DNA of 64,000 nt, taken from Crocinitomicaceae bacterium. GTDB taxonomy: Bacteria; Bacteroidota; Bacteroidia; Flavobacteriales_D; Crocinitomicaceae. Of this stretch, positions 3,962 to 32,620 are shown one piece after another. Under the pieces are notes generated by a model. That model worked only from the letters and a program-made list of their open reading frames with translations. It was not told where the DNA came from and did not search any database. A program made the translations under genes and the position numbers. The stretch covers positions 124,001 to 188,000 of the forward strand of contig JAURMI010000003.1 of the NCBI GenBank assembly GCA_030830785.1, given 5' to 3'. Every line of letters begins with the position of its first letter. The stretch's first letter is position 1.

Positions 3962-5200
3962 ATGGCCAACATTCGTGCTTTTAAAGGAATTCGTCCCCTT
4001 CGCAGTAAAGTTCATTTAGTTGCAGCACGACCGTTCTACTCTTATAAAAAGAGTGTACTAAAGGCAAAACTTGAAGATAATCCTTATACTTTTTTACATA
4101 TAATCAACCCTGAATTTGGGACAAAAAGCACAACAAAACCAAATTCTAAAGCAAGATTTCAAAAGGTGCGTGAAAAGTTTGAGCATTTTCTTAAACAGGG
4201 TATTTTTATAACCGATACTAGCCCTCATCTTTACATTTACAACCAATCTAAAGAGGGTATGTCTGTGAGGGGAATTTTTGCCGGAATTAGTGTAGATGAC
4301 TATACCAATGACATCATTAAAAAACATGAACAAACACTAACAGCTCGAGAAGATTTATTTACAAACTATTTAGATATAGTAGGATTCAATGCCGAACCTG
4401 TTTTGCTCACTTATCAATCAAATAGTGAAATACAAGAAATTTTGAATAGTCAAATGGCCCAGAGGCCAGAATACGATTTCACAACCACTGACGGCATTAC
4501 GCACCAATTATGGCTTCTCAACGAAGTTGATTCTCAAATTATCTGCCAATTATTTAAACAAGTTCCTTCATTATACATAGCAGATGGGCATCACCGTTCG
4601 GCCTCCTCTGTCCGTTATGCGCAAAAACTAAGAGAAGGAAACCAAAAGTATTGTAATGCAGCAGACTACTTTTTAGGGTATTTGGTTTGCGAAACAGAAG
4701 TACACATAGCAGCATACCACCGCCTCTTAAAATCTAAAAATGGCATAAGTCATGCAGATTTTATTGCTCAGTTGGAAAAACATGGAAAGGTAGAAAAATT
4801 AAAAGATCCTAGTTTACCCCAGTCTAAGCATGAAATTCACATTTATTTTGATCAAACTTGGCTAAAATACAGAGCCAAATACATTGAGTTGGACGACCCG
4901 GATCCAATTAAAAATTTAGATGCCCAAGTACTTTCAGAACATATTTTAAGGCCGATTTTTGGCATTGCTGATTTAAAAACATCTGATCAAATTGAATTTT
5001 TAGCAGGTGGCCAATCTCTTGAAAAAATCATAGAAATTGTTGATTCGAAAAAATCAGAAATTGCTTTTTTACTTTATCCTGCCAGTATCGAGGAAATAAA
5101 AAAAGTAGCCGATGCTGGCCTAAATATGCCACCCAAATCTACTTGGATTGAGCCAAAACTTAGAAGCGGTCTGACGATTTATTCTCTTGAGCATGATTGA
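3962..5200 (+). CDS. DUF1015 family protein
   Basis: A 412-residue protein of the DUF1015 family, recognised from FKGIRPLRSKV at the start and the conserved ADGHHRSAS motif near residue 208, where the two histidines could bind a metal or phosphate. The biochemical role of the family is not established as far as I know. The gene follows the TonB receptor by two bases and overlaps the next gene by eight, so it is probably cotranscribed with yggS. A link to amino-acid or PLP metabolism would be inference from this neighbour only. Confidence 0.85.
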   Translation: MANIRAFKGIRPLRSKVHLVAARPFYSYKKSVLKAKLEDNPYTFLHIINPEFGTKSTTKPNSKARFQKVREKFEHFLKQGIFITDTSPHLYIYNQSKEGMSVRGIFAGISVDDYTNDIIKKHEQTLTAREDLFTNYLDIVGFNAEPVLLTYQSNSEIQEILNSQMAQRPEYDFTTTDGITHQLWLLNEVDSQIICQLFKQVPSLYIADGHHRSASSVRYAQKLREGNQKYCNAADYFLGYLVCETEVHIAAYHRLLKSKNGISHADFIAQLEKHGKVEKLKDPSLPQSKHEIHIYFDQTWLKYRAKYIELDDPDPIKNLDAQVLSEHILRPIFGIADLKTSDQIEFLAGGQSLEKIIEIVDSKKSEIAFLLYPASIEEIKKVADAGLNMPPKSTWIEPKLRSGLTIYSLEHD

Positions 5201-28264: not shown

Positions 28265-31200
28265 TTAATTAAGTTTGAATTGAATATCGAGTTTAGCAAG
28301 TTCTTTGAATAATTGACTTGATGGCTGGACTTTTACACTTCTAGAAGGTAAAGAAACTTCTATGCCATCTAGTGAATCAAAAATCGTAAAATGCAATTGA
28401 CAATTTCCAAGATTTGCATTAAAAAGATCATTTAATTGTTCTATGAACATTTCATCAAGTTGCTTTGAAGAAAATCGAAGCTTTAGCATTTTGGCACGTT
28501 TCTCTCTTAATTCCTGTAGTAACTCAATCTGACTAACTACGAATTCCGGCAATTGTCTAAACCTAGGAATTTCAATTCTACCTTTTATGGCAACAAAGGT
28601 GCCGGGCTCCATAAAATGTTTAAATTTCAAATAGCTTTCGTTAAAAAGATTGAGTTTAAAGGAATCATGATAATCCTCAATGAATAAGGTGCCAAACATA
28701 TCACCGCGTTTTGTTAATCTGTGTTCCGAATTTGTAATAATTGCAGCGATTAGTAAATCTCTTCCTAAATAAGAATTTAAGTCGTTTAACATAGCCACAG
28801 ACCCAGTACAAAAAGATTCAATTTCAACCTTAAAATCGTCTAGTGGATGACCGGAAATAAAAATTCCGACAACTTCTTTTTCTTTGTTTAATTTATAAAT
28901 TGAGGGCCACTCTTGTGTTTCGGGGTAAGATGGTGCAGGCATATTAATTCCGGTTGCTTCACCAAACATACTTTGCTGGGCCGAATTTTGTTGTTCCTGA
29001 ATACTAGCCCCGTAACGCATTGCCGATTCCAAAAATGTACGACCATTGGCATCCGTGACAAAATATTGAGCCCGGTTCACCTCTTTAAACGAGTCAAAAC
29101 TGCCGGCATATGCCAAACTTTCAAGTGCCCGTTTGTTGCATAAGCGTAAATTAATTCGTGTAGTCAGATCGAATATTGAAGAAAAATCACCATTTTTTCG
29201 TTCGTTAAGTATCGCCTCAACAGGACCACTACCAAGTCCACGTATTGCTCCTAGCCCAAAGCGTATGGCACCTTCATTGTTTACTGAGAATGTGAAACCA
29301 GATTCATTTATATCGGGACCCAATACCTCTATTTCCATCCGACGACATTCCTCCATGAAAAAAGAAACTTGCTTGATATCAGACATATTATTACTGAGTA
29401 CTGAGGCCATGTATTCTGCAGGATAATTGGCCTTTAAGTATGCCGTTTGGTATGCAATCCATGCATAACATGTCGAGTGAGATTTATTAAAAGCATAGGA
29501 GGCAAAAGCTTCCCAATCTTTCCAAATCTTTTGAAGTGTTTCCGTTGGATGCCCTTTTTCACTGGCCCTTTGAATGAAAGTCGGCTTCATCTTATCTAAG
29601 ACTTTTTTATCCTTTTTCCCCATGGCTTTACGCAGGGTATCTGCCTCACCCTTAGTAAAATCAGCCAATTTTTGCGACAAGAGCATTACTTGTTCTTGAT
29701 ATACAGTAATACCGTAAGTTTCTTTTAAATACTCTTCACAATCCTCAAGATCGTATATGATTTGTTCGTCACCATGTTTGCGCTTACAATAAGAGGGGAT
29801 GTATTCCATAGGGCCTGGACGGTAAAGCGCATTCATGGCAATTAAATCAGCAAACTCTGTTGGTCTTAAGTCTTTAAGGTGCTTTTGCATTCCTGGAGAT
29901 TCATACTGAAAAATTCCAACGGTTTCTCCTTTTTGAAAAAGCGCGTAAGTTGTCGCATCGTCAATAGGAAATGCATCAGGATCGAGTTCAATACCCCGAT
30001 TATCTTGTACCAATTTTACTGCATCTTTAATTAGCGTGAGGGTTTTAAGTCCTAAAAAATCCATTTTTAGTAAACCCGCTTGTTCAGCCACTGCGTTATC
30101 ATATTGGGTACAAACCATTTCGGAATCCTTTGCCGTAGCAACTGGAACAAAATTTGTCAAGTCATCAGGAGTGATTATAACACCACAAGCATGAATTCCT
30201 GTATTGCGAACAGAACCTTCTATTTCTTTTGCTTTTTGCAATACACTGGCCTGCAAATCTCTACCATTGAAAATCCGACGTAATTCTTTAGCATTACTTA
30301 TTGCTTCTTGGTTTCGTAATTTATCAATAAGTTCTGGCTCAGGCCAATTAAAAAGATTATTCAAGGATAAATCAGGGACTAATTTTGCCAAACGATCTGC
30401 CTCTGGCAAAGGCAAGTTCATTACACGAGCAGTATCCCTTATAGCCGACTTGGCAGCCATGGTTCCATAGGTAATAATTTGTGCCACTTGATTAGCACCG
30501 TATTTATTAATTACATATTCGATAACACGGCCTCTTCCTTCGTCATCAAAATCGATATCTATATCTGGCATGGAGATACGATCAGGATTCAAAAAACGCT
30601 CAAAGAGTAAATCATATTTAATAGGGTCAACATTAGTAATTCCAGTACAATATGCGACGACCGAACCAGCTGCTGAACCCCTACCCGGGCCAACCCAAAC
30701 GCCCATCTGTCGTGCTGCATTGCAAAAATCCTGTACAATCAAAAAATATCCTGGATAACCTGTTTTTTCAATTGTCGTAAGTTCAAACTCAATACGTTCC
30801 TTGATTTCTTCAGTAAGGAGGTCATATCGCTTTTTGCATCCCTCGTATGTTAAATGCCTTAAAAAAGCATTTTCACCTCGCTTACCACCATCTAGGGCAT
30901 CTTGCTCATCAATAAATTCCTTTGGAATTTCAAAGGCTGGCAACAAAACTTCACGATTCAAAGCATAATGCTCACACTTTGAAATAATTTGCCCAACCGA
31001 TAAAATTGCCTGAGGCAAATCTTCGAATAGTTTAATCATTTCCTCGGAGCTTTTCATATAATATGAATCGTTTTCAAGACCGTACCTAAATCCTCGTCCA
31101 CGCCCTTTGGGTGTCTCGACTAGTTCATTATCCTTTACACAAAGTAAAATATCTTGGGCAAGAGCATCAGACTTTTCAATATAATACGTGTTGTTTGTTG

Positions 31201-32620
31201 CAACGAGTTGAATTCCATGTTTTTGACTCAACTCAACGAGCATGGGATTAAGCGTTTCTTCTTCTTCAAGCCCATGCCGACCAATTTCTAAATAAAAATC
31301 ATCTCCACATTGTTGTTTCCACCAAAGGGTGGCATCTTCCGCTTGCTTTTGGCCAACGCTTAAAAGTAAACTTGGTATTTCTCCTTGTAAATTTCCACTC
31401 AGCACAATGAGGTCATCCTTGAAAGAGCAAAATACTTCTTTATCAATGCGAGGTACATAATACATACCTTGAGTGTAGGCAATAGAGGCAAGCTTTATTA
31501 AATTTTGGTAACCCTTTTTATTTTTAGCTAAACAAACAATTTTATAGCCATTGTCTTGACTTTTTTTATCTAAATGATTTTGGCAGACATTGAATTCACA
31601 TCCTATGATTGGTAAGATTTCTTTTTGGTCGAAAGTTTCGCCTTTTTTAATTGCTTCCGCTCTTGCAGCCTTTATTTTGGCATTATGAGCAGCGGCTTGT
31701 TTTTCGAATTGAAATGCTGCCATCATGTTCCCTGTGTCGGTAAGCGCAACAGCAGGTTGTCCTAAATCAATCGCTTTTTTAATTAAACCTTCAACTTGAG
31801 CTGTAGATTGCAGAATAGAATATTGTGTGTGGTTATGCAAATGAGCAAAAACAATATCCTTGTCCTCAATACTTAATCTTTCAGTAGCTCCTGGGTTTTT
31901 ATCTTGCTGGGGCTTACTGGCTTTTCGAATTTTTTCGCTTTCGGCTTTTAAATTCACGTGTTTAAGACCAATTTTTTGAATTGGATGCGGATTCAAAGTG
32001 CGATAAGATTCAAAATAACCTGGCTCCTGTAGAATTTCTTCCAAAGAGTAATGTTCTTGTCGGAGCAGTTCTAAAAAACATCTGGCGGTCGATTCTACAT
32101 CCGCTGTAGCGTTGTGCGCCTCATCAAATTTTTCGCCAAAGAGAAACTCATGAATTTCAGTGAGCGTCGGCAACTTATATTTCCCTCCCCTTCCACCCGG
32201 TAATTTACAGAGTTGCGCACTTTTTTCAGTACATGTATCTAAAACAGGTTTTGTCAGTGGCATGTCATGGCCAAGTCGAATAAATTCGCTACCCAAGACA
32301 TTGATATCAAATTGCAAGTTATGGCCAACTATAAAATTGGCTTTAAAAAGATCTTTTACAAAATGCTCGAGTACATTTTGTATAGGGATACCATTAGAAT
32401 TTGCCAATTCGGTAGAAATTCCATGCACGCGTTCAGATTCAAATGGAATATTAAAACCATCTGGCCGAATAATAAAATCTTTTTGAGAAATAAGCTCACC
32501 TGCCTCATCATGAAGCTGCCAGGCCAGTTGCACAACACGTGGCCAATTGTCCAAATCACTTATTGGCGCATTGTAATTTCGCGGTAATCCAGTGGTTTCT
32601 GTATCAAAAATGAGGTACAT
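28265..32620 (-). CDS. dnaE: DNA polymerase III alpha subunit fused to a DnaQ-type exonuclease
   Basis: A 1451-residue protein, about 290 longer than E. coli DnaE. Residues 1-190 are a DEDDh proofreading exonuclease with all motifs: FDTETTGL (D6, E8), GHNLQFD (99-105) and HNATAD (169-174). A linker leads to a PHP domain (about 257-500) whose metal ligands are mostly lost: TDTGN replaces TDHGN, LSGN replaces LSGC and ATNNTYY replaces ATNDVHY. The polymerase core has PDIDIDFDDEGRGRVIEYV; the finger and beta-binding regions and a C-terminal OB fold (RGDMFGTLFIEDYHDSFKLNLF) follow. It replicates the chromosome and should proofread in cis. Confidence 0.95.
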   Translation of the reverse strand: MYLIFDTETTGLPRNYNAPISDLDNWPRVVQLAWQLHDEAGELISQKDFIIRPDGFNIPFESERVHGISTELANSNGIPIQNVLEHFVKDLFKANFIVGHNLQFDINVLGSEFIRLGHDMPLTKPVLDTCTEKSAQLCKLPGGRGGKYKLPTLTEIHEFLFGEKFDEAHNATADVESTARCFLELLRQEHYSLEEILQEPGYFESYRTLNPHPIQKIGLKHVNLKAESEKIRKASKPQQDKNPGATERLSIEDKDIVFAHLHNHTQYSILQSTAQVEGLIKKAIDLGQPAVALTDTGNMMAAFQFEKQAAAHNAKIKAARAEAIKKGETFDQKEILPIIGCEFNVCQNHLDKKSQDNGYKIVCLAKNKKGYQNLIKLASIAYTQGMYYVPRIDKEVFCSFKDDLIVLSGNLQGEIPSLLLSVGQKQAEDATLWWKQQCGDDFYLEIGRHGLEEEETLNPMLVELSQKHGIQLVATNNTYYIEKSDALAQDILLCVKDNELVETPKGRGRGFRYGLENDSYYMKSSEEMIKLFEDLPQAILSVGQIISKCEHYALNREVLLPAFEIPKEFIDEQDALDGGKRGENAFLRHLTYEGCKKRYDLLTEEIKERIEFELTTIEKTGYPGYFLIVQDFCNAARQMGVWVGPGRGSAAGSVVAYCTGITNVDPIKYDLLFERFLNPDRISMPDIDIDFDDEGRGRVIEYVINKYGANQVAQIITYGTMAAKSAIRDTARVMNLPLPEADRLAKLVPDLSLNNLFNWPEPELIDKLRNQEAISNAKELRRIFNGRDLQASVLQKAKEIEGSVRNTGIHACGVIITPDDLTNFVPVATAKDSEMVCTQYDNAVAEQAGLLKMDFLGLKTLTLIKDAVKLVQDNRGIELDPDAFPIDDATTYALFQKGETVGIFQYESPGMQKHLKDLRPTEFADLIAMNALYRPGPMEYIPSYCKRKHGDEQIIYDLEDCEEYLKETYGITVYQEQVMLLSQKLADFTKGEADTLRKAMGKKDKKVLDKMKPTFIQRASEKGHPTETLQKIWKDWEAFASYAFNKSHSTCYAWIAYQTAYLKANYPAEYMASVLSNNMSDIKQVSFFMEECRRMEIEVLGPDINESGFTFSVNNEGAIRFGLGAIRGLGSGPVEAILNERKNGDFSSIFDLTTRINLRLCNKRALESLAYAGSFDSFKEVNRAQYFVTDANGRTFLESAMRYGASIQEQQNSAQQSMFGEATGINMPAPSYPETQEWPSIYKLNKEKEVVGIFISGHPLDDFKVEIESFCTGSVAMLNDLNSYLGRDLLIAAIITNSEHRLTKRGDMFGTLFIEDYHDSFKLNLFNESYLKFKHFMEPGTFVAIKGRIEIPRFRQLPEFVVSQIELLQELREKRAKMLKLRFSSKQLDEMFIEQLNDLFNANLGNCQLHFTIFDSLDGIEVSLPSRSVKVQPSSQLFKELAKLDIQFKLN

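Follow-up and report, generated by a model that had tools for sequence, protein, structure and literature searches.

Known exonuclease-polymerase arrangements

DnaE1 polymerases with an N-terminal exonuclease, all of them from Bacteroidetes and with some 60 residues of linker in between, were described by Timinskas et al. in 2013 (PMC3919608), and the 'N-terminal fusion in bacteroidetes' has been interpreted as a DEDD exonuclease that replaces the zinc-dependent PHP exonuclease (PMC5636811). Most DnaE1-only bacteria carry one candidate proofreader, either PHP or DnaQ, and the proofreader of Chlorobi is reported as not identified (PMC12926913). The architecture and its reading as a change from PHP to DnaQ are thus already published as a proposal (Timinskas 2013; Banos-Mateos 2017; NAR 2026), and the surveys PMC3919608 and PMC12926913, checked for terms of transfer and recombination, make no mention of chimeric fused genes.

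The protein that we analyzed, encoded in a 64,000-nt stretch of DNA (the window), is a member of this published architecture. It shares with the described fusions (PMC3919608, PMC5636811) a DEDDh domain before PHP, a linker close to 60 residues long (63 here), an altered PHP metal site and the phylum, and itself shows no difference from them; what we add are chimeric genes in its relatives. PolC of Firmicutes likewise joins a C-family polymerase and a proofreading DEDDh domain in a single chain, but there the exonuclease is inserted into PHP, whereas here it precedes PHP, and PolC models score far below cut-off on the window protein. E. coli Pol III alpha-epsilon also combines a broken PHP with a DEDDh proofreader, which acts in trans rather than in cis and, as a structural match, has about 22% identity to the fused domain. 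Standalone DEDDh exonucleases of about 190 aa are the closest kin of the fused domain, but have no polymerase fusion.

Domain layout of the window protein

The gene and its parts, all on the minus strand, are as follows.

28265..32620, minus strand: dnaE1 with N-terminal exonuclease fusion, 1451 aa, a single open frame (Pfam, NCBIfam)
32045..32620, minus strand: DEDDh (DnaQ-like) exonuclease domain, residues 1-192, catalytic D6, E8, D105, H169 and D174
31856..32044, minus strand: linker, residues 193-255 (63 aa), poorly conserved, pLDDT <50 at 238-250
30986..31855, minus strand: PHP domain, residues 256-545, ligands HHDTEKNNY, five of nine lost
30050..30865, minus strand: polymerase palm/thumb (PF07733, Pfam), residues 586-857, catalytic motif PDIDIDFDD
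30068..30070, minus strand: residue 851, in the conserved LLKMDFLGLKTL block, matching the proposed crossover of f22 relatives
29552..30043, minus strand: finger domain (PF17657, Pfam), residues 860-1023
29066..29332, minus strand: helix-hairpin-helix (PF14579, HHH_6, Pfam), residues 1097-1185
28964..28978, minus strand: predicted beta-clamp motif QQSMF, residues 1215-1219, in a column aligned with QVSLF and similar motifs of relatives
28517..28750, minus strand: OB fold (PF01336), residues 1291-1368, scoring below the Pfam cut-off

The window protein is a DnaE1, the replicative DNA polymerase III alpha subunit, of flavobacterial-type Bacteroidota. It matches the NCBIfam model PRK05673 (DNA polymerase III alpha equivalog) at 1236 bits against a cut-off of 1002, and Pfam assigns RNase_T to residues 3-182 (E 8.7e-10), PHP to 260-449 and DNA_pol3_alpha to 586-857; the polymerase part is intact and retains the clamp motif. 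An AlphaFold2 model (mean pLDDT 88.3, pTM 0.78) matches DnaE crystal structures and, more weakly, DnaQ, E. coli epsilon and TREX chains. The exonuclease motifs that a sequence-only reading had placed in frame with a full DnaE are indeed found within the 1451-aa frame, as D6-T-E8, GHNLQFD at 99-105 and HNATAD at 169-174. All five DEDDh residues align with those of fused relatives, where they are kept in 101/101 fused rows scored, and they are invariant in a 42-row alignment of fused proteins. The same genome encodes a second C-family polymerase (L005, contig C18 of G000), a 982-aa open frame with 28% identity to the window DnaE1 that is probably DnaE2-like.

Loss of the PHP metal site

The PHP site of the window protein reads HHDTEKNNY against the consensus HHDHEHCDH, so that four of nine zinc ligands are kept (H260, H262, D295 and E342) and five are lost, which makes the earlier wording that PHP has lost most of its metal ligands a fair one. 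Among DnaE1 genes taken from named contigs and from genomes of the phylum, an alignment of the PHP ligands in fused and unfused proteins, as the sequence-only reading had proposed, found the site broken in 105/105 fused DnaE1, many of which are near relatives of one another, and intact in 81/90 unfused ones. The losses follow a pattern: each of the 102 fused rows for which single ligands were tabulated has lost the cysteine, the last aspartate and the last histidine and has kept D295 and E342. In close pairs dN/dS is far below 1 for PHP (0.02-0.10 in the pairs reported) and likewise for the exonuclease, although sums over pairs are affected by saturation. Because of this constraint and the constant D295 and E342, we regard PHP as a retained scaffold with a dismantled site; the loss of ligands stands, and to describe the domain as decayed is misleading.

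The nine unfused DnaE1 with a broken site (six from f16, one of them a fragment, two from f14 and one from f31) show that PHP loss does not require fusion. FmoA (PF02327), which we take to be a marker specific for Chlorobi, was found in all 18 tested genomes of f16, f14 and f27, and these families are therefore Chlorobi, as are eight of the nine exceptions. Locus L317 (4547-5188, minus strand; genome G109) belongs to a case with an unfused DnaE1 and a broken PHP (HNDSRHGNH), in whose genome the family of the fused exonuclease is represented by a 214-aa protein; its tail ends in GLTLF and resembles a clamp motif. In G044, with a broken PHP and no fusion, a standalone homolog is the only PF00929 protein found. 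Some unfused DnaE genes carry inteins (PF14890 with LAGLIDADG), at residues 739-1148 in L124 1735-6186 (plus strand) and 772-1139 in L167 1-4413 (minus strand), and the DnaE genes of L163 and L169 are about as long as these two.

A probable single origin and mosaic genes

In a tree of PHP domains from which the ligand columns had been removed, the fused proteins form one clade (100/99); in the polymerase-core tree a single fused clade is rejected (delta lnL 185, AU p 7e-6). Exonuclease trees also put the fused domains in one clade, at 100/99 when the standalone proteins compared are distant ones and at a weaker 87/89 when their closest standalone relatives are included. The 105 fused genes with a broken PHP are thus copies of one event, not 105 independent ones, and because fusion and ligand loss both map to this event, their correlation alone cannot show order or cause.

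The disagreement between PHP and core is accompanied by mosaicism within the gene. In identity profiles, the fused f22 genes resemble the window's class until about residue 840 and unfused f22/f20 genes from there on, and a site-wise likelihood comparison places the switch at residue 851, inside the conserved LLKMDFLGLKTL block, with +171.7 before and -377.2 after; no column permutation of 20,000 was as extreme, in tests that, like all our mosaic tests, were chosen and run with the identity profiles already known. Residues 858-1445 of the fused f22 proteins join unfused f22/f20 at 100/100, and in an RpoB tree the fused f22 genomes group with an unfused f22 genome (100/98). For the thumb/palm (residues 560-845), native placement is rejected (AU p 0.00035) and the window's class as donor is compatible (p 0.43), but this segment alone is not placed inside the fused group and singles out no donor. 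At the level of sequence, the fused f22 gene is a chimera whose first ~850 residues are of the window's class and whose remainder is that of its unfused relatives; the direction of transfer, into the unfused lineage, we infer. No crossover is proposed at residue 851 of the window gene itself. Weaker mosaics occur in f3 and f8, with smaller switches at about 1152, 1220 and 858 (signals -57, -31 and -28). Since single-contig genomes occur among the fused f22 and f3 genomes, assembly chimeras are unlikely. The sequences suggest a single origin of exonuclease and dead PHP, which would then have travelled as a unit and left the recipient's native C-terminus in place.

The PHP tree, together with the AU test, led us to reject many independent fusions as the main reading. 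A version in which related exonucleases were fused repeatedly, with PHP sites lost lineage by lineage and PHP similarity arising by convergence, is in our judgment unlikely. It would account for the failure of the thumb/palm alone to fall inside the fused clade and for the drop to 87/89 when the closest standalone exonucleases are included, and the grouping of fused PHP domains could be exaggerated if they converged once the metal site was gone. Yet that grouping holds without the ligand columns, the thumb/palm rejects native placement, and the likelihood switch lies outside PHP.

The fused domain as candidate proofreader

The distribution of PF00929 proteins in f22 is the strongest argument at present for the fused domain as the probable proofreader. 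It is the only PF00929 exonuclease in 9/9 fused f22 genomes searched, and the two unfused f22 genomes have no PF00929 match and keep all nine PHP ligands. A tenth fused genome, G119, carries in addition, on a contig of 15 kb, a standalone member of this exonuclease family. In the window's genome, which was said to merit a search for a separate dnaQ, two further proteins match PF00929: one is an exonuclease-GIY-YIG, the other is ExoX-like. Neither exceeds an epsilon equivalog cut-off, and both look like repair nucleases; as the genome is 83% complete, a canonical dnaQ may lie in its missing part. The proposed switch from PHP to a cis-acting DnaQ-type proofreader is partly supported and is the best reading of these genomes, with f22 in its favor.

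It is improbable, more so than repeated fusion, that the fused exonuclease does some other job, such as primer or end processing, while another DEDDh protein proofreads. Every searched fused genome of the window's class does have at least two other PF00929 proteins that could take that part, and the closest standalone relatives occur in Chlorobi, phages and plasmids; against this stand the nine fused f22 genomes lacking any other PF00929 protein and the repair-type appearance of both extra proteins in the window's genome.

An initial set of standalone exonucleases proved too distant (about 35 bits at best) to point to a close relative, whereas searching directly with the protein brought some to light: ~190-aa DEDDh exonucleases in Chlorobi, f31, f6 and f22 with 47-53% identity to the fused domain. 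Phage relatives (phrog_192) reach about 41%, and plasmids also carry distant ones. It is possible that the fused domain derived from a mobile standalone exonuclease. The standalone form is present in 16/48 f16 Chlorobi genomes and in one genome each of f31, f6 and f22; f16 loci such as L313, L322 and L316 encode homologs of ~190 aa with about 47-49% identity. In 10/20 gene contexts compared, the position directly upstream is taken by a small gene from cluster 6 or cluster 11, and the one cluster-6 member scanned is a DUF3127 protein. At L316, the standalone exonuclease (4493-5062) has as its immediate upstream neighbor a DUF3127 protein (PF11325; 5098-5520, minus strand) whose C-terminus ends in NDDCPF, and other f16 loci have small genes at the same position. 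Distant standalone relatives in f7 (L326 and L327) start FDTTGAG or FDTTANG where the fused proteins have FDTETTG, and may by this motif have lost a catalytic acid. As a general proofreader of Chlorobi the exonuclease is too patchy, and 4/25 Chlorobi genomes searched have no PF00929 match at E 1e-6.

Reality of the fusion

The belief that such fusions exist in some Bacteroidota was borne out by homologous fused frames in about 100 other Bacteroidota genomes, which excludes chance or an assembly artefact. A frameshift between the two parts in related strains, which had been named as a possible refutation, was seen in one relative (L116 4250-5450, minus strand; G198), where exonuclease and polymerase lie in adjacent, different frames at a CCCCC run, probably through a sequencing indel or a recent split. 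That a gene model or an assembly wrongly joined two separate genes can on this one relative hardly be maintained, given a continuous frame in the 101 fused rows tabulated, single-contig genomes included.

Discussion

We consider it likely, with a probability of roughly 0.83, that a cis-acting proofreader, a dead PHP scaffold, a single origin and movement of the cassette within dnaE together explain these genes. On this explanation, the N-terminal DEDDh exonuclease would be the replicative 3'-5' proofreader, its activity and role both being predicted, and would be held in cis by a flexible linker. PHP, presumably once a zinc-dependent proofreader, would have lost its catalytic metal site and persisted as a structural scaffold. 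Exonuclease, linker and dead PHP most likely arose together, once; the N-terminal cassette would later have moved between lineages by recombination inside dnaE, displacing an N-terminus with an active PHP and leaving the recipient's native C-terminal part (clamp site, OB fold and C-terminal domain) in place.

We think it probable, though somewhat less firmly so than the explanation as a whole, that recombination within dnaE, an essential gene, spreads a cassette between bacterial lineages, made up of the DEDDh exonuclease, its linker, the dead PHP and a portion of the polymerase core. If true, a replicase that proofreads with PHP would become a DnaQ-type one at a stroke, with the recipient's C-terminal docking part kept. 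We came across no description of an exchange of the proofreading end of this gene between distant lineages. For Chlorobi, the standalone exonuclease is a candidate for the proofreader lacking in PMC12926913, carried by only 16/48 f16 genomes. The statistics of proofreader replacement are corrected as well: fused genes with a broken PHP are many copies of one event, not independent cases. Judging from the relatives of the window protein, families of a phylum may be able to exchange the proofreading end of an essential replicative polymerase, and such exchange would account for the replacement of an entire proofreading mechanism with no intermediate that lacks a proofreader.
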